Shown: one piece after another, positions 2,360-60,285 of the stretch
Position numbering within the stretch: position 1 is the stretch's first letter
Layout of the letters: each line of letters begins with the position of its first letter
NCBI GenBank assembly: GCA_024734495.1
Contig: JALMQS010000128.1
Coordinates: forward strand, 26,142,711-26,206,710
Reading direction: 5' to 3'
DNA length: 64,000 nucleotides
DNA from: Forficula auricularia
Lineage: Eukaryota > Arthropoda > Insecta > Dermaptera > Forficulidae
The notes under the pieces: generated by a model
Told to the model about the DNA's origin: nothing
Databases searched by the model: none
What the model saw: only the letters and a program-made list of their open reading frames with translations
Position numbers and translations under genes: made by a program

Positions 2360-2404
2360 CTGAAAACCAAACATTTTCTAATGATTAAACAAGTTTAATA
2401 TTAA

Positions 2405-2992
2405 AGTTTGAATTTGTATTTAAATCACACATGATTAGTTTATAATTATTTATTGAAACAAATAATTACAATATAAATACAACGTTTCAATCGATTTATT
2501 CTGCGATCGTTCTCAAGTTGAGCCAATCGCGTGTACTTCATGTTTATCTGGGCTCAAAACACAATTGTACCGACGGCATCAGCGCACCCTGTCGGATTGA
2601 GCATTACATGTTTTTAAAGATTATAAAGCAAAAAAATTATATTGACAAATCAAATGATAATAATAACGTTAATAATACATAACAATTAATTCATATTGTT
2701 ATTATTATCATTTGATTTGTCAATATAATTTTTTGGTTTATAATCGTTAAAAACATGTAATGCTCAATCCGACAGGGGCGCTGATGCCGTCGGTACAATT
2801 GTGTTTTGAGCCCAGATAAACATGAAGTACACGCGAGTGGCTCAGTTAACCTATAATCGGAGTGGGTGCTCATACTTGAGAACGATCGCAGAATAAGTCG
2901 ATTGAAACGTTGTATTTATATTGTAATTATTTGTTTCAATAAATAATTATAAATTAATCATGTGTGATTCAAATAAAAATTCAAATTTTAAT
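2405..2992. repeat. Long foldback element adjacent to a ChAT exon
   Basis: Arms of about 270 bases (2405-2677 and 2697-2992) are reverse complements around a centre near 2687. Both carry a GC-richer core (GACGGCATCAGCGC / GGGGCGCTGATGCCGTC) and matching AT-rich ends. The right arm has a short extra block near 2845-2875. The transcribed intron could form a very long hairpin just upstream of the exon acceptor. Confidence 0.85.
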
Positions 2993-3217
2993 CAAATTAA
3001 TCACAAAAATAAAAGCTTCAATAGCTTCATTACTAATAAGTTTAATATTATAAATCTACTCAGTCGAAATCTCAAAAATCAATGAACAAAACACCTTAAT
3101 TATTGAATTAATTAATTAAATTTTTTGAATGTTTAAAAAACATTTAGATCTCCCCTTCCCCGTCTTTTTTTCTACCTGATCTTCCTATTAATCCCAGATA
3201 TCCCTTGGTGTCAAAAA

Positions 3218-4445: not shown

Positions 4446-5628
4446 AGACTAAATTCTTTTTGGTAAACAACTCAAGCTTGAAAATTTCTACTCGACTGTT
4501 AAAATTTAATTTTTGATTTTATTATTTTATAATATTAAATTTTGTATTGACATTATTTCTTTCAGCAAGTAAACTGAATAAAAGTTGTTGTTCAATTAGT
4601 TACTTAATTATTTTTGCAAATTTAATTGTAATTTGTTGTAAAAATGTAATAATTTTGAATAATTTATTATAAGAATAAACTGTGATTAAATTATTGTTCA
4701 TAAATCTTAAATTTAAAATTTAAAATTTGGAAACATCATTAAAATTTTTGTAACTGTAGCTTTTAAAAAGCCCGCCTCAATCTTTGTCGCTCGTTCCGCG
4801 CTCTCGCTTGCACTTCAAGCCTTAAATGGAACGCCTCAGAGCGAGGTAACGCCGCATGAGTCATGTTTTTTCGTGCGTGCAGCCGGCTTCATCGAATTAT
4901 AAGACGTTGTACGTCAAAAATTGTAAAATCTTAAATTTTTAATTAAGAATTACTTTTATAGGCAAAAATTGGTAGAGTCTCACTTCTAAACTATTATCAA
5001 AAAAATTTTCAATAGGTATCTGTAAATTTAAAAGTTCGTTCTTTTGCTACAATGTTTGTATTTTCAATGCTGAGAATTGATTAGATTTTGAGCTTTCTAG
5101 CTCCGGATTTTCCGGTTAAAAAGTTCGAATATCATTTTTGAATAATTTTTAAAATTTTATTCCGTTTCTTTAGTTAAATATAATAAACATTCGAATTGAT
5201 CTGTTTTGCATTATTCACCCAAACTACATCCAGCACTTGAAAAAGTTTCCTTTTCTTCCAATTTATTGAGTGATTTATTCATCAGAATCTTATTGAGAAA
5301 AACTACAAAAAGGGAGCAGATAGAATCATATCTCTTCTTTACAACTAACGCACAGACTACTACAGTTCATACAAGTTCAAACCTGTTTCAATCTATTAAA
5401 GATTAATTTCATAATTTCTTTTATTCTAGGAATGGCGAATTTGCAAATCGAAGCAAGCTGATATTTTTAATAAAATATTCTCATCATTAAAAGGAGATAT
5501 TATTAATTGCCAATGGTCCGAAAATTAAAAGGGGGTTCTTTCGTAAATAATTATAAGTTATTTTATTAAATATTAAATATAAGAGAGGGAACTTTTAAGG
5601 AGATAAGTGTTTGTCCAAGGTGAAATAA
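4446..5628. other. AT-rich intronic stretch, no gene seen
   Basis: Mostly AT-rich sequence without recognisable coding. A GC-richer patch at 4766-4905 contains CGCTCGTTCCGCGCTCTCGC and a TGAGTCA site and is not obviously repetitive here. Confidence 0.4.
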
Positions 5629-6145: not shown

Positions 6146-6783
6146 TCTAAAAATAAGGAATTAAGTTAAATTACGAGGTTTTATGTGAAACCTACCTCGT
6201 AATTTTACTTAATTACTTATTATAAGAGAGGGGCCTGGTGTATGTTAAAGTCATGTAGAAGGCCACATCAGTTTATTTAAATTTATATCAATAGTTGAAG
6301 TTTACTATTATTATTTAATATATATGCTATTCTTTATGTAATTATACTGAATTTTATTTCTTTTAATTACTTTAATTCGATTTAAAATATATTTTGAAAT
6401 ACTCGATACAAACCACAATTCGTCATTATATGGTAGCGGGCCGTAATTAAGTCGGCCCCAGGCAGCAGGTTTGCCAGGCCTGTTCTATCAGATGAGTTTT
6501 ATCTTCAATTCTTCCACAAAGCTCAACTATTTCTTTAATTTTATAATTTCCTCTTTAGTAATCCTATTTAGCCATTTAATTCTCAACATTGTCCTATAGC
6601 CTAATATTTCTATAGACATTTAATGTATTCCTATCTGTATAAATTGAAAAAATTTACTTCGCCGGGAGAAGCAGAGTTGTTGATTAATAAGAGGAAATCA
6701 ATGAGGATATCTTCTGATTGATACAAATTAACATATACCTATATATAATGAATATATTATACATATTTAATTTATTTTTTAAA

Positions 6784-6818
6784 CACTATAGTTTCAAAGG
6801 TTTGACCTTCATCATCAG
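6784..6818 (-). ncRNA. Hammerhead-like motif, mutated cleavage triplet
   Basis: Minus-strand core CTGATGA, stem II GAAGG-tcaaa-CCTTT (last pair lost), GAAA, CTATAGTG. The triplet is GTG, which is not NUH, so this copy should not cleave. Confidence 0.5.
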
Positions 6819-6966
6819 TTTTTTTTTTTTTTTTTATTTATAATTTATTTACAATCAACCATTTGAACAGGTTTTAAGTAAATTTGATAAAATTGATTAA
6901 CAAACACACATACACAATACTTTGTCATTTATACACATGAAAGGAAGTCTTCCATCGAAGTCACCC

Positions 6967-7351
6967 TTAATTGAATTTATTAGTCCAGTTGTGCAGAATG
7001 GCGCGCTCCTCGGTGTCTAGAATATGATTTTTCTTAAGTCTCCTAGTTACTTGACTATTGTCCAGGAGATTGATGGCTGATATATTTGAATGGTTTTCGA
7101 GTTTTTTAATATGTTTGTTGTACGAGTCCAGGATTACCTTTCTAACAGAAGGGACAATAAGGTCACTATGCAGACTTTCGTTTGTGAAAGTACCAAGGTG
7201 CATTCGCAATACCTCTTAATATTTTTGATTGTATTCTTTGATTTTTACTGATGTTGGACTCACTAGCAGTTCCCCAGGTTTGACACGAATATGACCATAT
7301 TGGTTTGAGAATTGATTTATATAATAGTACTTTAGTTTTTAAGGCAAGCTG
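6967..7351 (-). pseudogene. Jockey-type LINE reverse transcriptase, C-terminal remnant
   Basis: On the minus strand one frame reads KTKVLLYKSILKPIWSYSCQ, then TWGTASESN and SKILRGIANAPWYF, ending at a stop. A second frame then continues with LHSDLIVPSVRKVI, then ENHSNISAINLLDNS and RRLKK. Order and wording match the conserved C-terminus of Jockey-clade ORF2 (the K-PIW-Y--Q-WG block, APWY, DL-I-V, LLDN--RRL-R). There is at least one frameshift and no catalytic domain remains, so it is dead. Confidence 0.8.
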
Positions 7352-7458
7352 TGAGTTTTATCAGTTTTTTAAATTATAAATATTTTCTGTGTTCATATAT
7401 TCGTTTTGTTGTAATAGTAAACTGTTAACTTCACAAACGAATGCATCCTAATTAAAGA

Positions 7459-7499
7459 AGACTGATGATGAAGGTCAAATCCTCGAAACTATAGTCTCT
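7459..7499 (+). ncRNA. Hammerhead-ribozyme-like motif, near consensus
   Basis: CTGATGA (7462-7468), stem II GAAGG-tcaaa-TCCTC with one mismatch, GAAA (7485-7488), CTATAGTC (7489-7496). Flanking AGA and TCT give a 3-bp stem I. The palindromic CTATAG allows either a one-pair stem III with TATA loop or a dimeric stem III. Confidence 0.5.
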
Positions 7500-7703
7500 A
7501 ACAAATAAATTATATATATCCATAATATATAAGGTATATGTTTATTTGCATCAAGTAGATTCATTGATTACTCCTTATGACCTTTCTGTTTCTCTTATCA
7601 TTAAAAGTTTCACATCTGCGCAATAAAACAACATATTAATTCTAAAGATTCAGGAACATCTTACTTTCTATTATATATTTAGAAAATTTATCAACTTAAT
7701 GTT

Positions 7704-7809
7704 TTATTAAATGAATTTAACTTTTTAAGGACATCATAGATATTAGAGAAATATTTTTACATTGCATATCTAATATCTATGATGTCCTTAAAAGTTAAAT
7801 TCATTTAAT
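7704..7809. repeat. Short palindromic element
   Basis: Arms of about 43 bases (TTATTAAATGAATTTAACTT and its complement), spacer about 20 bases, including GACATCATAGATATTAGA. Confidence 0.8.
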
Positions 7810-8084
7810 AATATTATATACTGGGTTGATTTTTGAAATAATGTCGATCTTTTTTCAAAAAAAGCCACTCAAAAAGATACTTTAATTAATGTTTTATGCT
7901 TTATACTTAGGTATATTTATTCCCAAAATTTTTTAATCGATTGTTTTTTGTATAAATTTAAAAGAAAAAACTCTTGAGTTAACATAATATTGTACTTGTT
8001 TTATTTATTTTTCTTCTTTATGCTCAAAATTTTTTATTATTTATTTTTTATTTATTTATAATGAAATTATATATCTTAACGCAC

Positions 8085-12852: not shown

Positions 12853-12880
12853 CTGATGATGAAGGTCAAACCTTCGAAAC
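12853..12880 (+). ncRNA. Hammerhead-like motif, truncated after GAAAC
   Basis: CTGATGA followed by a perfect 5-bp stem II GAAGG-tcaaa-CCTTC and GAAAC. The ATAGTC cleavage segment is missing and replaced by TAACAAAT, so the ribozyme is broken. Confidence 0.45.
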
Positions 12881-13074
12881 TAACAAATTCGCCCCACTAT
12901 GTCAAAATAAATATCGTCCATCTACATTTATACACCCTATTAAGTCGAACACGTGTGTTTAGAAATATAAAATTAAAAGTTTTTGTGCGGAGAGTAGCAG
13001 AATTTTTATATATTGAAGGAGACAATAAAAGAGTGTGTCTTCTGCTGGAATTATAAATTTTATTTATTTATAAC

Positions 13075-13112
13075 GAGACTATAGTTTCGAGGGATTGCCC
13101 TCTTCATCAGTC
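13075..13112 (-). ncRNA. Hammerhead-ribozyme-like motif, near consensus
   Basis: Minus strand: CTGATGA (13110-13104), perfect 5-bp stem II GAGGG-caat-CCCTC, GAAA, C-TATA-GTC. Stem I has two pairs (AG/CT) before a mismatch. All core residues and a GTC triplet are intact. Confidence 0.55.
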
Positions 13113-13172
13113 TATTACAATTGATTCACAAGAATTAATTCATAAATTAATTCCTGTGAATCAATTGTAATA

Positions 13173-13211
13173 GACTGATGAAGAGGGGAAAGCCTTCGAA
13201 ACTATAGTCTC
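13173..13211 (+). ncRNA. Hammerhead-ribozyme-like motif, near consensus
   Basis: CTGATGA (13175-13181), stem II GAGGG-gaaag-CCTTC with one G-U pair, GAAA (13198-13201), CTATAGTC (13202-13209). It is the mirror partner of 13075-13112. The stem II arm carries changes that keep pairing (GAGGG with CCCTC versus GAGGG with CCTTC). Confidence 0.55.
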
Positions 13212-13511
13212 GTTATAAATAAATAAAATTTATAATTCCAGCAGAAGACACACTCTTTTATTGTCGCCTTCAATATTTAGAAATATAATTTTCAAACATG
13301 ATTTCCCTTCTCTTTTTCTGTCCGTGTGTGATTCTGCCTATCTGTTGTCTTACTGTCTTTCTATATTCCAAAAACTATAAGCTAAGGTCATCAAAAAAAT
13401 TGTTCTAATAATAAAAGGTTTCGATTTTTAAAACAAAGATTAGATTTCTAGCTTTAGAACTTTAAGTTCAAAAATTCAGAAAATCTGAAAAAATCGAATT
13501 ATTAAATGAAC

Positions 13512-13593
13512 ATAAAGAGAAACAAAGAGGGTGTCCTCTGCTTGATGCAAATAAACATACACACACATATATCAAATATTCATATGTATATAA

Positions 13594-13637
<44 letters not shown>

Positions 13638-13880
13638 TGTTTTTTTTTGAGACTATAGTTTCGAAGGCTTGACCTTCAACATCAGTTTTAATTATAAATA
13701 TTTTTTTCTGAGGTCAGTATCGCGTGGATATTGACATTTTTTTTTGTTGTTACTCAGCCGACAAGCCAGCAGCTGTAAACATATGTATATTTGATATATG
13801 TGTGTGAATGTTTATTTGCATCAAGCAGAGGACAATCTCTTTGTTTCTCTTTAGGATTCAACAACTCTGATACTCCCGGC
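13512..13880. repeat. Type A foldback element, one hammerhead-like motif
   Basis: Outer arms AGAGAAACAAAGAG / CTCTTTGTTTCTCT and CTCTGCTTGATGCAAATAAA / its complement face each other. A long (TA)n tract lies at 13600-13632. The left half has an inverted hammerhead-like motif at 13651-13685 whose core reads CTGATGT, a lost A. The right half has lost its motif. The end carries the shared CCGGCAAAATAAAAACTTTTC trailer. Confidence 0.7.
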
Positions 13881-13899
13881 AAAATAAAAACTTTTCAAT

Positions 13900-14960
13900 T
13901 AAATGAACAGATCTCAAACATATTAACTAACGAGCTAAAATTTGTCACCTAGATTTGTATTAATAATAATAATAACTTCACCTTTTTAGCTCACCCTTTT
14001 GATGACAAAAAATTGCTAAATCACTAAAATTCTTGGACAGCATTTAAGAATCTTGATTAAGTTTTCACTTTTTATCCAAATTTAAGTCTATTTGAATCAA
14101 CGTTCACTTGCTCAGTGTATTGAATAATATATTCTTATTTGATAAAATTAATAGTAAAATCATCGGTGTAGTTAATCCCATGATTTTCCGCAAAGCTCTC
14201 AACTTGAGTTAAGTTAGCTTAATGAATAATGAATGAGAGGTGTACTCCCGGTTGCCTACCTTAAAGGCAGCCATAGAATTAATTCTACATCGGTTGAGTT
14301 TAAATCATTATTTTATCGATAAATAATTCTGGAATCTTTATATAGAAACATTACTCATTACATTCATTTCTTTAATTAGAGAATTTAATGTTCTTGTGAA
14401 GAGAGCACGTTTATTATCATCTCTTCTTCTAACGTCAAATATCATTTATAACTCTTAATTATATCTAGATTATTAATGCATATTCATGAATAATATAAAT
14501 AAAGGCTTATCCAAATATTAAAATAGAATCCACTCTCATTTTTATTAAGATAAGACTTTCTAGTTAAAATAATTGGAAATCTATATTGACTTAAACGTAG
14601 CTATATTTACTCGATTCGTTTAAATAATACTTTTTCTTAATTACGCATCGCAAAGCAAGAAATGAAATGAATTGAAGAAAGATTGTTCATGAAGCCGAGG
14701 CAAGAAGAATTAGACAAAAAGATTAGGAAATAGTAAACACTAGAGCATCTAATCTCGATTTGCTCCGAAGAGGAATTAGATTTGTGGAAAAACAAGATCA
14801 TTAATCTCAATTCACTTCGGTCTTGATCTCTAAACGGATTTGAAGTGGATTGATTTACATCACGTTAAGCCCTTCATGTACTGCTTCATCCACTTTGGTT
14901 TCAGCCAAACATACAATGTTATTAACTTAAGGGAATTTGGAAAATATTAAAAATTAAAAA
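13900..14960. other. AT-rich intron with one less AT-rich block
   Basis: No gene is recognised. 14640-14900 is less AT-rich and not obviously repeated within the window; it contains paired segments (AAGATCATTAATCTCAATTC and GCATCTAATCTCGATTTG). Confidence 0.35.
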
Positions 14961-14970
14961 AAATTATATT

Positions 14971-15492
14971 GTTAAGCAATTTGAACCGCGAAAGTTAAAT
15001 AATATGATAAATATATATGAATCTTATATATTTATACTATATATAGGATTCATATATATTTATCATATTATTTAACTTTCATGGTTCAAATTGCTTAACA
15101 AAATAATTGAAACTTTCAGTTTAAAAAATCAATTTGTCTAAAAATTAAGTAACTATACTATAAATAGAAAAAACCGCGAAAAGGAAAAATGACATTCCAA
15201 CATAAGAGCTTATTCGGCGGGAGAATCTGTGGGCTAGTTGGTTAAGCCGCTCTTCGCGTAAAGGAGAGAGACACGGGTTCGAAACCCGTCGGATGCTCTA
15301 TTTATTTTCCTTTTCAAAAATAATAAAATAATTTTCTTAATGTAGAATTAACATAGGAAATTGTTTATATATAGTATAAATATATAGGATTCATATATAT
15401 TTATCATATTATTTAACTTTCGTGGTTCAAATTGCTTAACAAAATAATTGAAACTTTCAGTTTAAAAAATCAATTTGTCTAAAAATTATATT
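14971..15492. repeat. Palindrome plus direct repeat bracketing a tRNA-like sequence
   Basis: Arms 14971-15023 and 15048-15100 are inverted (GTTAAGCAATTTGAACC and its complement). The second arm with its trailer to TTTGTCTAAAAATTA is repeated directly at 15389-15490. The tRNA-like sequence at 15221-15298 sits between the two direct copies. Confidence 0.8.
15221..15298 (+). tRNA. Degenerate tRNA-Thr(CGT)-like sequence
   Basis: The D arm is GGCT-AGTTGGTTA-AGCC. The anticodon arm is CTCTT-CGCGTAA-AGGAG with anticodon CGT if loop numbering holds. The T arm is a perfect ACGGG-TTCGAAA-CCCGT. The acceptor GAATCTG/CGGATGC has one mismatch (A-G) but extends to a 9-base stem. Position 33 is G instead of the invariant T, so it is probably not functional. 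It lies between direct repeats, which suggests a mobile tRNA-derived origin. Confidence 0.45.
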
Positions 15493-24925: not shown

Positions 24926-25975
24926 CTAGGTGTCCAACCCGCAGCCTGCTGCCCGCATCTACCCAGAAACAAATATTACAGACTTCATTATATTCATGAA
25001 ATAACTTTTTGTAAGTATAATAGTTATGTATGTATTTATATATAGGAGAAGCTATTTTCAAAAATAATATTTCTGAAATCTAAAATTAGGAGCTCACTAA
25101 GTAAAAAAATTACTAAGTTCTTATTTTTAAATACCAATCTTCATCTCGCATTTAAATTTACTAAAATATTTATTATTTCAGTAATTAAAACTTCTACAAT
25201 AAAATCTCATATGTTGAACAGTTATATTTATAAAGACATTAATAATTTAGTCAAAATGTTTTAATTAATTACGAAAAATTAAGTGAAAATCACCTGACTG
25301 AAGCACAAGCTAGTTTTTTGAAAACAATCTCAAACCAATTGGGCATTTCTTGAATTCATTTTTATTTTATTATATTTGGAATTATTTTCGTTTCTGATAT
25401 CTAATCAATTAAAATGGGATTCTTTTCCCTTTCCTTTGTTTTACGCATTGAAATGTATTTATTTCATTTGGAGTCGAGCAGCCAGAGGGATAAGTGCATA
25501 ATCGTTTTTTTTACTCTGTGTCTCTTTTTGTGCATTTGTTGACAATTGCCTTATGGAGAATTGTTCAAACCTTCATGATTGACAAGGTAAACATTTAAAT
25601 ACAATTTTTAAAATCTTTTGGATATTTTAGATTCAAAAAATAAAAATTCACATCATATCTACATAATATATTCTTTGTTATAATGGATAATGGATATCAT
25701 TATTCTTCAGTATTGACTATCTTTTTGATTAACAAATATTAATAGTATTAGTATATTGAAGGAGACAATAAAAGAATGTGTGTCTTCTGCTGGAATTATA
25801 AATAAAATTTACAATTCCAGCAGAAGACACAGTCTTTTATTGTCCTCTTCAATATATAAAAAATCTGCTACCCTCGGTACAACAACTTTCAATTTAAGTA
25901 TTAGTATACTGCGGCCCGAGAAATTTTCTTTTCTTCAAATGTTACCTGAATAAGCCAAAAGGTTGGACACCCCTG
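24926..25975. mobile_element. Probable hAT element (AGGTGTCCAACC ends)
   Basis: The right end reads (reverse) CAGGGGTGTCCAACCTTTTG; the left end reads CTAGGTGTCCAACC. The same terminus is at 49983 and, more diverged, 48937. I could not find a convincing 8-bp duplication, so the left boundary is uncertain. It contains a short foldback (25752-25900). Confidence 0.5.
25752..25900. repeat. Short type B foldback without ribozyme
   Basis: ATTGAAGGAGACAATAAAAG and TTCTGCTGGAATTATAA face their complements across about 10 bases, then CTGCTACCCTCGG and an AACTTTCAATT trailer. It matches 13010-13278 with the hammerhead portion deleted. Confidence 0.8.
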
Positions 25976-41582: not shown

Positions 41583-42074
41583 TTTTCCTTTATTCCATAA
41601 TTTAATTTATAAAATCCGCATTGAATTTATTGTACATTAATTTAGTAGTCGTACTGTTGGATCGTCATTTATACATCATCATTCATAAAAAGACTATCAC
41701 GATGCTTAAATCGCGTGCAATGGTTTGAGGATGCCTGTGTAATTTAGAATATATCTGACTTGAATAATTAATCTGAGCCATCTCTAGGTTGCCTATCTAG
41801 CAGGCAACTAGGGAAAATTACTACATTTCACTGTACCGGTACGATTATTACACCTCCAAATAGGTGGCGCAGAGTAAGAATGTATATAAGTCACGAATCT
41901 ATGAGATCTGATATCAATGCTTTCATAAACTATGAAAAATATTAAATGAAGTAGTTTTAATAGAAATCTTTGGTGAAAATGTTCATTGGAATCACTTCTT
42001 TATTCCGAAATAGTTTATCAAAAGAAAAATTTTACTTAGAGAAAGTGGTGTAGGTTTTAGGTGAAACATGATAT

Positions 42075-42295
42075 TAATTAATAAAGTAAAGGGTGTGTAG
42101 TTTCACAGTGAATGAAATAAAACTCAAAGAGGTTTATACAAACTCAATATATTTCGGATTATTAGTTCATCATCAGGAGTTTACAGGTTAAAACGATGAT
42201 GGACTAATAATCCGAAATATATTGAGTTTGTATAAACCTCTTTGAGTTTTATTTCATTCACTGTGAAACTACACACCCTTTACTTTATTAATTAA
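42075..42295. repeat. Foldback element with hammerhead-like core
   Basis: Arms of about 95 bases (42075-42167 and 42199-42295), nearly perfect inverted copies including CTCAAAGAGGTTTATACAAA. The central region holds a hammerhead-like motif on the minus strand and a damaged one (CGATGA) on the plus strand. A scrap of the arm (CCTCAATATATTTCGGATT) is at 17213. Confidence 0.85.
42137..42185 (-). ncRNA. Hammerhead-ribozyme-like motif with 9-bp stem I
   Basis: Minus strand: CTGATGA (42176-42170), weak stem II GAAC-taataa-TCC, GAAA (42155-42152), TATATT. Flanks TGTAAACTC and GAGTTTGTA pair over 9 positions (two G-U) as stem I with triplet ATT. Stem III is at most an A/U step. Stem II here is damaged, but the mirror copy keeps GGA-ctaataa-TCC. 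Confidence 0.5.
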
Positions 42296-43327
42296 AAGAA
42301 AATGCTAATTATTTTAAGTTTAAATAAGATGAAATATGAAATCCTGATAGTGTGTAGTTATTATAATTTATCTAGACCTACTAATGTACAGAATAAATAA
42401 AATTAAAATGGTTTCCTACAATGATCTATCAATTGCGTTGAAACAATAATTCCAAGAGGGATTTATGAATATTTCATGTTACTAGTTATTACAATTTAGA
42501 GTGATGAATATTTATAACCATTTAAAGAGAAATTATTATTGCAAATTAGAGTATTAATGAAAACAGCGTCGATCATTCTTAAAACGTCAATCAAATTCTA
42601 GTTTGTTCCACTTGACTCTCTCTCTCTCAAAAAAAAAATATATGGATATTTTTATAATCAATAAAATGATTAAATGTCCTCTCGGGGAATCATCCGAACC
42701 TTTCATGAAATTTCCATATTTTACGCCTCGTTCATAAAAATAGGCCTTTGTTTCTAACGATAATTCCCGTTGAGAATCCAAATATTCCTATTAACATAGA
42801 CATATTATTAAAAAAAATTCTAACGTTGACTGAATAACCATTAAATATAAATCTTCCTTCTTTATTATAAGTAGATGCGACGCCCGCCATTATTAAAAGG
42901 AAATTGAGAAAAATTAAATTATAAATTTTTTCCAAGGGGCTAGATTTTCATTTTTTTGAGCCTCCCCCCTACACTTATTGTAAGTTGATGATACTAGCTA
43001 TATTCGTTTTGGAATTGGCATGTGTGCCTTAAGTTGAGTCAAGTGCTCCATCTGGTGTCACATTTTTCAGCTGGGTCACTTCAGGTCTGCCTTAGTTTGG
43101 TGCATTCTAAAAGGAATGCATTTAGAGCACAAGGCAATATTCGAATGACGAAAATTAAAAAAAAATTATTATTTTTATTATAGTTGAATAATTAAGATTC
43201 TGGTAGGTATAGGTACATACTATATATATTTATATAATTAATTTATTTAATAATTATTTTAAATAAATAACACATTTACAAATAAATAATGGATACTTTC
43301 ATGGAAAAAGAATTAAGTTTGTAGACC

Positions 43328-43362
43328 CTGAAGAAGTAGAGAAAAAAATTCTTCGAAATGTC
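43328..43362 (+). ncRNA. Hammerhead-like motif, weak
   Basis: CTGAAGA, a stem beginning AGAAG and closing CTTC, GAAA, TGTC. Flanking CC and GG give only two stem I pairs. Followed by AATAAAAGTAAATAATTTAT, similar in style to the 398 and 57412 copies. Confidence 0.35.
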
Positions 43363-43760: not shown

Positions 43761-43927
43761 GTAATTATTTTTTCAGAAATCTTAATATATTTTTTCACAT
43801 TAAAAATTTAAATTTCTTCCAGAACTTAAGTGACTTGATTTAAATTTTTCGTTAAATTGAAGGGTTGGTTTTGTCACAAATATAATAAAACAATAATTTT
43901 AATAACTATTTGAATTATTTAATTGAT

Positions 43928-43972
43928 AACTATACAGTTTCGGTCACCACTGGTCGACCATCCTCAGTAGTT
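43928..43972 (-). ncRNA. Hammerhead-ribozyme-like motif (left arm)
   Basis: Minus strand: CTGAGGA (43967-43961), stem II GGTC ... GACC, GAAA, CTGTA. Flanks AACTA and TAGTT form a perfect 5-bp stem I if the triplet is GTA. Stem III would be a single C-G step. Confidence 0.45.
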
Positions 43973-44834
43973 CTAAAATTGAAATGAAACATTTATTTAC
44001 AATTTTTCTTTTTATAGAGAATTATATAACACAAAATTTTTTTACAATAATTTGAAATCATACATACATCTCGTTCAAGAACCGGAATTTGTCATTTCAC
44101 ATGAAACATTCATTCTTAAATCTTCAATATAGATACATCACACAATTCATTACAATCACACACATACATATATATAGCAACAATTTATAAAAACGTTTAT
44201 CACTGAACTAGAAACTATTTCCAAAAGGAAAATAAAAGAATCTCTTTATATATTGAAAGATATCGATAATTGTGTAAATTTCAAAATGGATTCGGAAAAC
44301 ATATCAGAATGCTACAGTCTCATTGTGTCATTGTTGTGAGAGTATTGATTTGATTTAGTATGTTGATTAAACAGGTATTGATTTTATAAGAAAAATGTAA
44401 TAGGGAGATGTGTATTTTGATATTTCATTAATAAAAAATAAAAAATAAAGAATGAATTAACTTATAATGTGTTTCTAGAATGGATTATTTATAATGGGTT
44501 TTTTAATTGTATAATAATTGACTATGCAATGAGATAATTAGAAAAAAATAAAATTGAAAATAATATTTAATATAATCATTAATTCAAAATAGTTTCTAGT
44601 TCAGTGATAAACGTTTTTATAAATTGTTGCTATATATATGTATGTGTGTGATTGTAATGAATTGTGTGATGTATCTATATTGAAGATTTAAGAATGAATG
44701 TTTCATGTGAAATGACAAATTCCGGTTCTTGAACGAGATGTATGTATGATTTCAAATTATTGTAAAAAAATTTTGTGTTATATAATTCTCTATAAAAAGA
44801 AAAATTGTAAATAAATGTTTCATTTCAATTTTAG

Positions 44835-44879
44835 AACTACTGAGGATGGTCGACCAGTGGTGACCGAAACTGTATAGTT
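44835..44879 (+). ncRNA. Hammerhead-ribozyme-like motif (right arm)
   Basis: Mirror copy of 43928-43972 with the same core (CTGAGGA 44840-44846, GAAA 44866-44869) and the same AACTA/TAGTT stem I. The stem II segment TGGTCGACCAGTGGTGACC offers alternative pairing. Confidence 0.45.
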
Positions 44880-45465
44880 ATCAATTAAATAATTCAAATA
44901 GTTATTAAAATTATTGTTTTATTATATTTGTGACAAAAAAAACCCTTCAATTTAACGAAAAATAAAAATTTAAAATCTGCCCTTTTATTTTTCGAAAATA
45001 TTTGAGGAGATTGTCCAATTTCTTCTTATTTTACAAAATAAAAAAAATAGGTCAAATTGTTTTAAAGAAATTTATAATTTTATGTCGGGCCGCATTTATT
45101 GCAGTGCTGGGCCGGACTGTTCTAAACATTCTATACACAAATAGAAAACCTTAATAAAGAAAAACAAATATGGCAACTAGCATAAATATTATAAAGAGTG
45201 ATGGTGAAATATTAACTTAATTAACGCATTATATTACAGATATAATTGATAATCATAAAATATATATATACTTATATATATAAATTAAATGTTTATTTAA
45301 ACACTCTGTGTTTGATAGAAAATGACACTTCCCCCAAGACACTATAGTAAATAATAGAATTCATGGAAAAAGATAAGTAAAATTTTTATATTAATTTTTT
45401 TTTCGACTCTGCCCAGTCGATAATGATAAGAAAGAAGAGCTAATGCGAATTTCTTTTCTTTTCAG

Positions 45466-47006: not shown

Positions 47007-47366
47007 GACTGTATACTCAATGATGATGATGGACAATTGAAGGTTTAAAGTAGCGGAAACGGTCTCTAGAAGTCATATGAATAAATAAGCTGGCTAAACC
47101 AATTGTTCAATTTGTTGAAAGATGCATGTTGAAGATTTAGGAGGGATTATTGACTTTATGTCTTCAGAATAACACCATGATAGCTTATTATTATTTATAG
47201 CACAAGATCCCAACTTAGATTGAAAAGTTTTTGTTTTGCCGAGAGTAGCAGAGTTGTTGATTCACAAAAAGAAACAAAGAGGTTGTCCTCTGCTTGATGG
47301 AAATAAACATACACACATATATATCGAGATGATATATCTGTATATATATATTATTTATTTGTTTTA

Positions 47367-47402
47367 GACTATAGTTTCGAAGACTTGGTCTTCATCATCA
47401 GT
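47367..47402 (-). ncRNA. Hammerhead-ribozyme-like motif, intact core
   Basis: Minus strand: CTGATGA (47401-47395), perfect 6-bp stem II GAAGAC-caa-GTCTTC, GAAA, CTATAGTC. Stem I has only one pair before mismatches. Confidence 0.5.
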
Positions 47403-47519
47403 CTTTTTTAATTATAAATGTTGTTTTACATGGAGTCAATATCGTGTGGATATTGAAAATTTGATGTTCCTTTTTCACTGGTGGTCAGCTTAGAACAACA
47501 ACATTTATAATTAAAAAAG

Positions 47520-47558
47520 ACTGATAATGAAGACCAAGTCTTCGAAACTATAGTCTCA
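47520..47558 (+). ncRNA. Hammerhead-like motif, core G to A
   Basis: Mirror of 47367-47402 with the same 6-bp stem II and CTATAGTC, but the core reads CTGATAA. The changed residue is an essential core G in hammerheads, so this copy should be inactive. Stem I AG/CT. Confidence 0.5.
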
Positions 47559-47730
47559 AACAAATAAATAATATATATATATATACAGATATATCATCTC
47601 GATATATATAGTATGTGTGTATGTTTATTTGCATCAAGCGAGAAACCTCTTTGTTTCTCTTTGTGAATCCCGACTTACGTCGACCTTCACCTATCGAGTT
47701 TCCTAATGAATTTAATATTTTTATAATATC

Positions 47731-50644: not shown

Positions 50645-50820
50645 AATTGAAGGAGACAATAAGAGAGTGTGAGTTCTGCTGGAATTATAAATTATATTTA
50701 TAACTATATAAACGATATAACGTTATAAATAAAATTTATAATTCCAGCAGAAGACACACTCTTTTATTGTCTCCTTCAATATATAAAAATTCTGCTACTC
50801 TTGGCAAAAAACTTTCAATA
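50645..50820. repeat. Short type B foldback without ribozyme
   Basis: TTGAAGGAGACAATAAGAGA and TTCTGCTGGAATTATAAAT inverted across about 45 bases, then TCTGCTACTCTTGGCAAAAA trailer. A T-tract precedes it. Confidence 0.8.
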
Positions 50821-51120: not shown

Positions 51121-51374
51121 ACTAAATTTCCCCTTTTGAATACTCATTGCCCCCAAATTGCCACCCCCTTCCCCAATTTTATTTATTGCCCCTCTGATAA
51201 ACCAAATCGCCCACAGGTTAGAAACCACTGGTCTAAAGCGTCTGAACCAGTTAAACGAAGCAGATTTTTTAGCATATTAATTCAGTTTCAATGAATCCTT
51301 TGAAAAGAAGTGTATGTAAAATTTTTATCAATCCGTCTGATAAGAAGAAAGTAAGTGTAAGGCGGAAAAGGTAC

Positions 51375-51575
51375 CCAGTTGTCAAGTTTCTCTCTGCGCT
51401 CGAGCAGCTTCTCTTGCAGATGAGGTCCAGGGCCGTCAGGGGCGGCAAAAGCGGCGGCCAGCTCGCGGGTGTGCTCGAATTGTTCCCTGGACACGAGGGG
51501 TTCCACGGCCGCCAGGTATCTCTCCAGCGTGAGCTCCAGCCGAGGAACCGGCAGCTTCGGCAGCTGCTCGCCCTT
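51375..51575 (-). CDS. ChAT: Choline acetyltransferase, first coding exon in the window
   Basis: A 201-nt minus-strand exon (67 codons) between acceptor tgtttcag and donor gtacct, phase 0 both ends. It encodes KGEQLPKLPVPRLELTLERY, then AAVEPLVSREQFEHTRELAA, then GPHLQEKLLERREKLDNW. LP-LPVP-L--T---YL and LQ-KLLERREK-DNW are the N-terminal signature of choline/carnitine acyltransferases. The exact spelling is closest to ChAT. The exon is GC-rich against AT-rich introns. The initiator exon was not found in the 12.4 kb upstream that is visible. VAChT, which nests in the 5' part of the ChAT gene in flies and vertebrates, was not seen either. ChAT makes acetylcholine in the cytosol of cholinergic neurons. 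Confidence 0.96.
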
Positions 51576-51819
51576 CTGAAACAACAACAAAAACAATGGA
51601 TTAGTACATGTACTAGTGAAAGTAAAATGTAGGGCGTTTGTTCTTCTCCTATCACGAAAGAACTTCAAGTTCAGCCGAGATATTGAGATAAGTTTCGCAT
51701 AACGTGACCATTCTTTCCGTTTTGAACGGTATTGTCCTATTTTCAGTCTGACCTGTTGTCCTAAAGGTAACTAAAATATACCATTTTTATTAGATTTTTT
51801 ATATAATACAAAATAAACT

Positions 51820-53783: not shown

Positions 53784-53882
53784 TTTGCCGAGGGTAGCCG
53801 AGTTGTTGATTCATAAATAGAAATAAATCGCTGAGGCTGTCCTCTGATTAATGCAAATAAACACATTATTCTTATTTATATA
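53784..53882 (+). repeat. Truncated type A hammerhead-family element
   Basis: TTTGTTTTGCCGAGGGTAGC, GAGTTGTTGATTCATAAATA, then CTGTCCTCTGATTAATGCAAATAAACAC. The internal ribozyme part is absent. 53905-54020 then resumes with the distal tail of the TTTACCATACA family. Confidence 0.7.
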
Positions 53883-54200
53883 CCAAATATAAATATGTAG
53901 AGGTACTATCATTTTTTTAATCAAAATAGTTTCAGTCGTTTTTTCTAAAAAACGAAGCAAAAAAACACTTTTTTCATTTACGATTACAATACTTGACCAT
54001 GCCCTATATGGTAAAGTAAAAAATATATATGTAATATATGAAATACAAATTTATATAAATATTATATATATTATTTAGCACCCTGTCATTTTATGTTTAT
54101 ACTTATGGTAAAGTAAAAACTTTAATTGGATGTTGATGAAGGCAGTCCAAGGTGGTTGTAAAAAAAATAAGACTATATCAGTTTTATTATTTTACATTTA

Positions 54201-54255
54201 TTCGATAACCAACGTTTCGGGGATTTACTCTCTCCTTCTTCAGGGTAACGAAAAG
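54201..54255 (-). ncRNA. Hammerhead-ribozyme-like motif with paired stem I
   Basis: Minus strand: CTGAAGA (54243-54237), stem II GGAGAGAGTAAATCCCC (3-4 pairs), GAAA, CGTT. Flanks TTCGTTACC and GGTTATCGAA pair with one bulge as stem I. Overall layout resembles 19126-19178. Confidence 0.45.
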
Positions 54256-54259
54256 TCAA

Positions 54260-56260
54260 AACTTTAATAATTACAATGGCAATAAGAAGAGAGCGCAAAA
54301 AAGTATGTTTGGGTAAAAACTCTTTAAAAAGTAAGTAGTTTCGTAGATAAATATTCTCTGGATAGCCTTTGTCAAGAAAAAAGTATCTTTAGATTCACGA
54401 ATTTTATGTATATTGACAAAAAATTGTGAAACAGCTTCTATCTTAATAAAATAACGAAATGATCAATTTTATTTGAATTAGCTTTCTTTTAGCATATTTT
54501 ATTGTAAATATTTCTTCTAAATAACATTTTTTTGATAGGTTTCCAGTTCTGCAAATAGATTCGTTAAAATGATAAAATATATAATTATAAATTTCAGGTT
54601 TAGTGCTAAAAAAGTCCCTTAAAGGACATTTTTAAAATGTTCAAATGTGTTAATTTTTTTAGATCGTTGAACATATTAAAAAACAAAACAAAATGCTGAG
54701 TCCTAAAATTGAAAAAAAGGCGAAATACTTTTTTTGCTCTCTCTAGTGATAATTATGAAGTATGACTCATAGTCTTATTTTTTAAATGAAATTATGTCAA
54801 CCATTTGAATGCTTTCAAATGAATAAATGTCTCAAACGTTGTATTGTGTAAACTATAAGTTATCTGAATTAATAATAAATTAAAGTAAATAAAAAAAATC
54901 GTCTACTGTATGTATAATATAGGTACATATATTCTATTTATATTTAACTATTTTTGATTTACTATTTTATACAAATTAAGAAATATAGCTAGATACAGAT
55001 ACAATTTTATGTCTAAATAGAAATATTATAGAGATAATAATAATGACTAAAATACAGATATAATAGTATAGATACAATATTTTGTAGACTAAGTATTTAG
55101 ATATAAGATACATAAACATATAAAAAATTCATAAAATATTTAGATACATAATATATACATAAACGAATATAAAAATTTAAATTTAAAAAAAAAAAGAAAA
55201 AAAAATACAAAAATGTTCATGCCTTAAGTACACATTTTATTCAAAATAATTTGATAGATTTGGAAAACGCAGCTCGCCTGAGGAACCGAGAATTGAATTA
55301 TCCAAAATTTTCAATTTTTTATTCGTACTTAGAAATGTCTAAAATGGGATGAAATATAATTATTCTTTATCTGTCTGAATTTCGATATTCAATTCGGCTT
55401 TTATGGACGACAGATCAGAGAAAGTTTATTTTAGTTATGGCCAATTTTTTCAAAAAAAGCTCATTAGATTTTGGGCTTTCTAGCTTCAGTACATCCAGTA
55501 GAAAAATTCAAATCATTATAGAAAGCTCTTAAGCGGTTAGGACTTATAAGCTAAAATTTGCCAAACAATTTCGAATAAAGTCTCGAAGTTTCAGCCTTTT
55601 AATCTATGCTCTTTGCAGTTAAAAATATTATCAAAAATTGTATTGTAACGATTGAACATGTGGGAAATATAAAAAATTACACTTTTTTCTAATCATTTAA
55701 AAATAACATGTATTTTGTATTTTTTCTCTGAATATCAATAAAAATCAAAGGTTTCTTTCTAGTGGCCGGGGTAATATGGCCAATATTGGTCAAGTGAGAC
55801 TCCAGAGTGATTTATAAAATTTAATTTCTCCCAAGGCTTCAAGGCATTCAAATCAAATATTTGAAAGATTCCTATCAATTCAACATATTAACTAAAAAAC
55901 AAAATTGCCACAACATTTTATCCAGGTTTTCAAATTGCCATATAGGCATTATAAAAAGCCTAAATTAGCCTTAATATCAAATTGTACTCAAAATCAATAA
56001 TCTTGAAATGACTTGACCCATATTTATCACAAGAAATCTCACCTCAATACAATTGAATTTATTAACACCTAAAAAGTACCTACTCCAGAATTAGGGTCAG
56101 AGCTTTGTGAATTCTGATAGAATTATCCAATTAAAAATGTCTAATTTGGTTTTTTCACATACTCCCCTAATAGTAATTCAGAAGCCATAGATGCATAGAT
56201 AAATTTAATTTGATATAATGTTCTATTGCTCAGAATCCTCTTGCGTTGTACACTGTTAAG
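54260..56260. other. AT-rich stretch upstream of ChAT exon, no gene seen
   Basis: Long A/T tracts (for example 55180-55205). 55270-55610 resembles 29870-30010 and 5080-5130 in order of words (GGGCTTTCTAGCTTC, AGAAAGTTT), an old dispersed repeat. No coding. Confidence 0.4.
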
Positions 56261-57284: not shown

Positions 57285-57480
57285 AAAAAAGTGCAACCCC
57301 TAAAGGCCTGGGTTGGCCCCTCCATCGTGAAAAGAAGAAGAAAGAATTTAATGGGTTGGGCGGGGGTCGAAGGTATCCGTGGATACGGGTCTTAAATAGC
57401 TGAAGGTTAGCCTGAGGAAGTCGAAATAAATCGACGAAACGTCTGGCACGTTTAATAAAAACTCTGTGTTTTTAATTTTT
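57285..57480 (+). repeat. Dispersed repeat ending in a hammerhead-like motif
   Basis: GGCCTGGGTTGGCCCCTCCATC, AAGAAGAAGAAAGAATTTAA, TCGAAGGTATCCGTGGATAC, then GCCTGAGGAAGTCG at 57411 and TTTAATAAAAACTCTGTG. The ribozyme-like part is 57412-57443: CTGAGGA, GTCGA-aataaa-TCGAC, GAAA, CGTC. It has lost one base before the core compared with the 398 copy, which breaks stem I. Confidence 0.55.
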
Positions 57481-59216: not shown

Positions 59217-60159
59217 TTATTCTGTAATGTATTGCCCATTTTGATCAATGACCTTTTGCCATCTTTCAGGAAGCATCATAATCCCACGTTCATAAAACTT
59301 CTGGTTTTTATTAGCAAAAAACTGAATCAGGTACGATTTGACATCATCATCATTATTGAAATTTTTACCACTCAAGGAGCTTTGTAAAGATCAAAACAAA
59401 AAGTAATCAGATGGTGCAAGGTCAGGACTATATGGTGGATGTGGCAAAACATCCCAACCAAGCTCCAATAATTTTTGCCGAATGACCAAAGATGTGTGTG
59501 GCCTTGCATTGTCATGATGGAATACAACACCTTTTCGATTTGTCAATTCGGCCCGCTTTTCTTCAACTGCATTGTTTAATTTCGTTAGTTGTTCAATGTA
59601 GACAACAGAATTGATCGTTCGGTTGGATGGTAAGAGTTCAAAGTAGACAATTCGGTTCACCTGGCCTGCTCCACGATCTTTTCTGCTTGATATTGTTGTA
59701 AACAACCCATTTTTCAGCGCCAGTTATCAGTCGTTTTAAAAATGGATCATTTTCATTATGTTTCTTTAGCAAATCGCAGATGTTAATGCGTTGCGTTAAA
59801 TGCGTTTCTTTCAGTTCGTGAGGAACCCATGTATCGAGTTTTTGAACATAGCCAAGTTGTTTTAAGTGATTTTCAATGCATGTATGTGATACATGAAGCT
59901 TCTCTGTAATCTCACGTGTTGTACTGTGACGATCCGAATCGATTATTGCTTTGATTAGGTCGTCATCAACTTCAATTGGACGACCAGAGCGTTTTTCATC
60001 TTTGAGTGAAAAATCACCAGAACGAAATTTGGCAAACCAATTTTGACACTGCCGTTCTTTTAAGGCTTCGTCGCCATAAACAGCACATAACTTTCTGTGA
60101 GCTTGCGTGTTCCTTTTGATTTTCCATTTTTCAACGAACGCCAAACGAAAACTACGCAA
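59217..60159 (-). pseudogene. mariner transposase, inactivated
   Basis: Minus strand: VYGDEALKERQCQNWFAKFR, GRPIEVDDDLIKAIIDSDRH and WVPHELKETHLTQRI cover the helix-turn-helix and linker. The catalytic part has LITGAEKW, HHDNARPH, YSPDLAPSDYFLF and a C-terminal ERWQKVIDQNGQYITE. This is the D,D34D mariner pattern. The first catalytic Asp (TGDEKW in active proteins) is Ala here. About 25 residues with a frame change are missing after SWSRPGEP. A stop replaces the residue after DYFLF. It cannot be active. Length would otherwise fit the usual 340-350 residues. Confidence 0.93.
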
Positions 60160-60285
60160 CCGATCAAAAGACTTTTTTTACTGATTGACAGCTGAATTGC
60201 CAACTATCAAATAACAAAATATGTTTTACATTTGGACTACGCCAGCAAAACTAAAAATTCAACTGAAGCCATCTATGAGTGAACT

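Follow-up and report, generated by a model that had tools for sequence, protein, structure and literature searches.

The locus and its foldback elements

Near 47 kb, the 64,000-nt stretch of Forficula auricularia DNA analyzed here (the window) contains a foldback element, E4 (47219-47666), with a hammerhead-like motif in each arm. Each motif consists of CTGATRA, one unpaired base, a 6-bp stem II, GAAA and CTATAGTC, and both motifs face outward. After stem II the two arms bear GAAACTATAGTC in mirror orientation. The minus-strand motif reads CTGATGATGAAGACCAAGTCTTCGAAACTATAGTC; the plus-strand motif is the same apart from its CTGATAA core. The motif pattern matches twice in the real sequence and never in 100 shuffles, so the original prediction was right that both arms hold CTGATGA or CTGATAA, a 6-bp stem II and GAAA as mirror copies. 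The arms are 94% complementary over 94 nt (47332-47425 against 47497-47590), and one of them continues into a tail. The tailed arm is 93% identical to the end-repeats (pLTRs) of a tandem array, L029, described below. In full Penelope copies, the counterpart of the E4 tail falls within the beginning of the open frame. Coordinates of all elements are collected in Table 1.

Table 1. Foldback elements, arms, motifs and target-site duplications (TSDs) in the window
Feature	Position	Strand	Details
I3 foldback, fourth family	2388..3050	+	42-45 nt tail at right; 15/16-bp TSD
E1 foldback	6643..7600	-	motifs 6791-6818 (-), 7462-7489 (+)
Solo hammerhead-like motif, same stem II type as E4	12853..12880	+	
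E2 foldback, same superfamily as E4	12958..13288	-	13-bp exact TSD TTTAGAAATATAA at 12958 and 13276
E3 foldback	13501..13911	+	44-nt tail at right; TSD ATTAAATGAACA
E5 short foldback without motif	25744..25911	+	41-nt tail at right; TSD AGTATTAGTATA
I4 foldback, third family	42020..42302	-	101-nt arms 99% complementary; 45-nt tail at left
I1 foldback, another family	43801..44974	-	383-nt arms 99% complementary; 23-25 nt tail at left; TSD TAAAAATTTAAA
E4 left TSD	47207..47217	.	ATCCCAACTTA
E4 one-sided 3' tail, 41 nt	47218..47258	-	arm alignment
E4 tailed pLTR arm	47259..47456	-	palindrome TCAATATC-GTGTG-GATATTGA at inner end
Hammerhead-like motif, E4 tailed arm, core CTGATGA intact	47367..47401	-	pattern and alignment
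E4 inverted junction, remainder of spacer	47457..47496	.	
E4 inverted arm without tail	47497..47666	+	
Hammerhead-like motif, E4 untailed arm, core CTGATAA (G8 -> A)	47521..47555	+	
E4 right TSD	47667..47677	.	ATCCCGACTTA
E6 short foldback without motif	50646..50820	+	tail at right; no clear TSD
E7 single arm with tail, without motif	53784..53880	-	
Solo unit, motif 54214-54243 (-)	54110..54268	-	16/17-bp TSD AAAGTMAAAACTTTAAT

Relatives of E4 are scattered over the window. Related units had been named at 6643, 12973 and 13512, and all three are real; the last (E3) has a motif left in just one of its arms (13658-13685, minus strand), and the first (E1) has its left arm split by a non-LTR retrotransposon fragment. 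The unit at 12973 (E2) has a 31-nt tail at its left and motifs at 13084-13110 (minus) and 13175-13202 (plus). The supposed ribozyme-free derivatives at 25752, 50645 and 53784 do lack the motif, and the third is a single arm. A tail close to CTCTGCTACTCTCGGCAAAACAAAAACTTTTCAAT is found on one arm and is missing from the other in the window copies aligned, the other arm of E1 and E7 being incomplete or absent. We considered reading the left ends as 5' truncations and rejected it, since the arm alignment shows one arm merely without the tail.

The fragment within E1 (6820-7365, minus strand) is the 3' part of a non-LTR retrotransposon, recognized by eye from a C-terminal frame and poly(A), and is bordered on both sides by ATCAGTTTTTT.

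Three further foldbacks, I1, I3 and I4, have no blastn match (E up to 1e-3) to the 47 kb family or to each other. By layout only, we read them as pairs of other Penelope families. I1 carries motifs at 43937-43967 (minus) and 44840-44870 (plus). In I4 a weak motif with a CTGATGA core is confined to the left arm (42152-42176, minus; E 0.5 with the alignment-built model R1, see below), the right arm reading ACGATGA; its stem I is AAACTC/GAGTTT. The decayed I3 motif, CTTGAGA...GAAAC, lies at 2484-2517 (minus) and 2875-2908 (plus), and its R1 E-values of 2.8 and 4.1 are at chance level alone.

Motifs with other stem II sequences are located at 403, 19139, 43937/44840, 54214, 57412 and 62230. The hammerhead-like motif is identical at two distant sites, 403-431 and 57412-57440; one of the pair has a perfect 5-bp stem I (AGCCA/TGGCT) and the other a broken stem I.

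Copies of the TSD agree at 13/13 positions in E2, 13/14 in E3, 14/15 in E5, 10/11 in E4, 13/14 in I1, 15/16 in I3 and 9/9 in I4. The duplications are strong in E2, E3, E5, I3 and the unit at 54214. They are weak in E4 (taken alone, P 0.07 in a narrow zone and 0.5 in a wide zone), in I1 (P 0.015-0.13) and in I4 (P 0.13-0.2), whose 9-bp repeat AAAAGAAAA was missed by the second scoring. None was seen in E6 or E7, and a search for one in E1 found none.

In seven of the eight window foldbacks, the inverted repeat abuts the TSD at one end (gap about 0) and is separated from it by 23-45 nt at the opposite end; E6 is the one that fails. By a second scoring this geometry fits six of the eight; of seven other inverted repeats it fits one, and of 300 random placements 39. 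Both scorings used hand-set limits for the inverted repeats of E4 and E5, taken from the arm alignment, and did not include E1 and E7. Two of the seven motif-free inverted repeats (I2 and I9) also fit in the first scoring, and I9 alone in the second.

A motif-free inverted repeat at 14962-15492 has a 12-bp direct repeat and, on one side only, a gap of 31 nt; it is perhaps another Penelope pair whose motif has been lost.

Hammerhead character of the motif

The pattern CTGANGA-N(8-30)-GAAAC occurs 15 times in the window, where 0.38 occurrences are expected. Our alignment (A1) holds 15 motifs, namely 13 of the 15 pattern matches plus E3_5 (CTGATGT) and E4_5 (CTGATAA); the matches at 5245 and 19204 were dropped for having no fitting stem II. 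Ten columns are invariant, CTGA and GAAAC included.

Both stems covary. Over the five pairs of stem II in 13 distinct rows, 96.9% of 65 cells are standard pairs, compared with 73.4% in shuffles and 34-57% in slid versions, with the proviso that several rows are close relatives, for which the shuffles do not correct. Double-sided changes are seen in four of the five pairs. For stem I, a fixed rule placed the cleavage site at the first RTY that follows GAAA. Positions one and two of the stem are then paired in 24 of 32 cells, compared with 13.7 when flanks are permuted (p 0.0001; 16 motifs, with I1_R dropped as a duplicate and I4_L and 43328 added by hand). Counting eight families gives 12/16 against 7.4 (p 0.008). 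Ten hand-picked motifs, one per family, give 15/20 when E2 represents the 47 kb family and 14/20 (p 0.016) when E4 does. The misses are 57412 and the 43937 family at both positions and E1_3, E3_5, E4_3 and 19139 at one.

The original prediction had proposed two computational checks, covariation in stem II and a search with the Rfam hammerhead models. Covariation proved clear; the Rfam hammerhead families gave no match, either in the whole window at gathering score or in four stretches at E-values up to 10. At gathering score, Rfam reported a single tRNA in the window, and the sub-threshold matches in the four stretches were mostly to microRNA models from long hairpins. The model built from our alignment added one likely relic, at 43328 (E 0.0098), and its values for the I4 and I3 motifs were not significant. 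One scan of viral_contigs for the motif returned 0 matches.

Taken from sequence, the covariation in stem II and stem I supports a hammerhead derivation of the window motifs. A review (PMC7761336) describes Penelope hammerheads as minimal type I variants without helix III or loop contacts. The likeness could instead be non-functional, a relic or some other structure within a Penelope pLTR. Besides the empty Rfam search, this possibility draws on the extra base that separates the 7-base core from stem II in all 15 aligned motifs and on the E4 stem I of only 1-2 bp. It also fits the Anolis Penelope element PAc, whose ribozyme did not cleave without protein and was dispensable for insertion, ribozyme mutants still being inserted (PMC11167929). 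Set against it, stem II and the first pairs of stem I covary between families around core letters that do not vary. There are also thousands of copies within 3 mismatches, though recent spread explains these as well. On this evidence we hold a non-functional likeness to be possible and rather unlikely.

Copies and pair layout across the genome

The 1.06 Gb genome contains at least 13,097 matches to the motif at up to 3 mismatches (6,550 + 6,547), and a backward-pattern control gave 0. Among the 100 places listed, all of them exact matches, 21 of 21 neighbors closer than 2 kb are head-to-head (minus then plus), and no direct or inward-facing neighbors were found within that distance. A dispersed foldback family, as first proposed, is therefore present.

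Of 20 stretches drawn from the genome, 16 were selected because they hold head-to-head pairs and 4 because they hold single motifs. No pair could be assessed in L025-L028, and the edge of L013 cuts through its first pair. Measured on the 47 kb arm, the two arms end differently in all 16 assessable pairs, one at position 235-238 and the other at 183-203. The tailed arm is the right one in 10 and the left one in 6. Direct repeats of 9-18 bp stand at the outer ends of 16/16 pairs, each with P <=0.025 relative to random zones of the same stretch. Because the 16 pairs were picked as head-to-head from exact matches, these tail and TSD counts say nothing on damaged copies. At one extreme the arms overlap slightly, and at the other they are 1,104 bp apart; several spacers are palindromic and two hold Penelope coding pieces.

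Coding partner

L029 (G000:C563:410700-417300) is a direct head-to-tail array with a period of 2,908 bp and units 99.8% identical, which makes recent activity likely. The exact 35-nt motif is present in both pLTRs seen. Between them lies an 858-aa open frame, with its first codons inside the tail, that matches RVT_1 (E 1.6e-16) and GIY-YIG (E 8e-6). Against NCBIfam, the frame gave RT-type matches under the cut-offs, one chance match and nothing else. Since L029 pLTRs with the exact motif flank a frame with RT and GIY-YIG, we take the 47 kb family to be a Penelope pLTR.

The same association appears elsewhere in the genome. For all six GIY-YIG (PF01541) matches in reach of listed motifs, a motif follows on the same strand at a distance of 388-398 bp (five on C4 and one on C5, with 150 of 3,423 candidates scored). 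The L013 spacer holds a GIY-YIG fragment (E 6.6e-7). The coding fragment there points toward the arm without a tail, which shows that the tail has no fixed link to one strand and tells against a simple form of the self-priming discussed below. Neither an RT-like fragment in L013 nor a 70-aa fragment in L010 had an RT or GIY-YIG match, and the window itself yielded no Penelope coding sequence. The Penelope assignment is built on RT plus GIY-YIG, the pLTR, the tail and the layout.

Origin of the inverted pairs

We put the probability at about 0.96 that the 47 kb family of foldbacks consists of Penelope insertions, each made of two head-to-head pLTRs with or without a coding piece between them.

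Self-priming is the most likely way in which the inverted pLTR pairs were made. Reverse transcription would begin in the tail and proceed through the pLTR; the new strand would then prime itself at varying points and be copied back, leaving an inverted arm without a tail. The turnaround points do differ among the genome pairs. Self-priming would also make the two arms alike at birth; they are 99% alike in I1 and I4 and, by alignment, 92% identical in E2, 87% in E4 and 67% in the old E1.

A likeness between the E3 and E4 junctions was considered as a sign of pairs moving as units. We rejected it, as what the two share is the palindrome at the pLTR inner end, and pairs elsewhere in the genome turn around at different points.

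Folding bears on what the hammerhead could do in such an insertion. When full transcripts are folded, motif nucleotides pair with the other arm at 35/35 positions in E4, 31/34 in E2, 40/40 in I1 and 38/38 in I3, and at 9/31 in I4 by a 60-nt distance rule. The probability of stem II is 0 in all five. Folded alone, a single arm forms stem II at >=0.99 in E4, E2 and I1; in I4 and I3 it is not formed. Because the sense motif pairs with the opposite arm, these models make self-processing of a lone inverted pair doubtful. The putative hammerhead would work, if at all, in direct tandem transcripts. It would probably do so as a dimer joined through the palindrome ACTATAGT, given that stem III is only a palindrome and three helices therefore need a dimer. 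In a lone inverted pair it would be a passenger.

The inverted pair might instead move as a unit. Its hairpin RNA would have a hammerhead on each strand, transcription from either side would yield one ribozyme, and trans dimers would form via the same 8-nt palindrome, making the pair an ambisense viroid-like satellite of coding Penelope copies. If true, this would explain why lone pairs and solo motifs greatly outnumber coding copies. The likeness is to Avsunviroidae-type RNAs (PMC6466107), which share a self-paired rod and a hammerhead on each polarity; the earwig pair differs in that it is dispersed as DNA and belongs to a coding retroelement family, with no sign of RNA replication. We consider such a satellite very unlikely.

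Less probable still, by our estimate, is a satellite of the retrozyme kind. Such an element would be small and non-autonomous, and the circular RNA freed by its hammerheads would serve as the template for reverse transcription. In its favor, small copies that have a type I hammerhead-like motif and no coding sequence far outnumber any other form among the listed places, and the metazoan retrozymes of PMC7229834 are likewise small non-coding elements with type I hammerheads. Those retrozymes are described there as short direct tandems, with circular RNA shown, whereas the earwig copies are inverted pairs with a tail and TSD. No direct neighbors within 2 kb occur among the 100 listed places, and the motif of a lone pair is taken up in pairing with the opposite arm.

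A DNA transposon of the foldback or MITE type, mobilized by a transposase and with its hammerhead likeness due to chance or capture, would account for the long inverted arms and short flanking duplications, and it is refuted for the 47 kb family, with next to no probability left, by one end with an extra 23-45 nt (window) or ~35-55 nt (16 genome pairs) where inverted repeats reaching both ends would be the hallmark, by TSDs that vary from 9 to 18 bp where a fixed length would be, and by the same repeat serving as the pLTR of RT/GIY-YIG copies.

Comparison with known systems

Minimal type I hammerheads are reportedly a general feature of Penelope pLTRs, in work by Cervera and de la Pena from 2014 and by Lunse et al. 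from 2017. The inverted pairs had been put forward as unusual and unlike Penelope-like elements. That part of the original prediction is not supported: full Penelope copies in this genome have the same motif in their end-repeats, and a head-to-head arrangement of pLTRs of which one alone is tailed belongs to the Penelope anatomy described in PMC3846280. The find is real and largely expected, Penelope elements being already known with hammerheads and with head-to-head pairs.

That paper covers Penelope inserts of Adineta vaga with head-to-head inverted pLTRs, one with a 31-bp tail and the other 37 bp shorter. The A. vaga pLTR includes the first ORF codons, TSDs are 8-10 bp, partial tandems occur, and palindromes at the inverted junction were interpreted by the authors as self-priming. 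The earwig elements resemble these Pen families in their RT and GIY-YIG ORF, one-sided tail and pLTR reaching into the ORF, and likewise in inverted pLTRs, junction palindromes, short TSDs and direct tandems. Unlike them, they have TSDs of 9-18 bp, a pLTR of ~195 nt with a 43-nt tail, and a very high copy number. Hammerheads have 0 mentions in the text of PMC3846280.

PAc (PMC11167929) has its hammerhead in the pLTR at the ORF start, and its reverse transcription begins 111-118 bp inside the ORF. The earwig motif is similar in being a minimal type I motif near the ORF start with little or no stem III and a presumed dimer. It differs in its predicted cut site, ~146 nt before the tail end in L029 and 85-92 nt before it in PAc, in having an 8-nt palindrome as stem III, and in its 3-nt stem II loop. 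Among the titles, abstract openings and passages covered, we found no published description of hammerheads in an inverted or foldback layout.

A single Penelope hammerhead motif is thus present at least 13,097 times in one genome, in lone pairs, solos and a full-length direct tandem. This makes the earwig a good testing ground for the role of the Penelope hammerhead and for a self-priming origin of inverted pLTR pairs. Head-to-head hammerhead pairs in raw sequence can be read as Penelope footprints, which Rfam models overlook.

Other features of the window

A compact palindrome of ~100 bp (TTAAATGAATTTAACTTTTTAAGGACATCATAGATATTAGA and its mirror) at 7710-7812 is MITE-like. At 59638-60177, on the minus strand, there is a partial mariner (Mos1-type) transposase frame with Pfam HTH_48; its best named relatives, among the 120 of 463 matches listed, are 86-92% identical and come from spiders, Apis and the nematode Cooperia. 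The sole host gene recognized among the 10 longest frames is represented by a carnitine/choline acyltransferase exon at 51291-51770, also on the minus strand (Pfam PF00755, E 9e-16).
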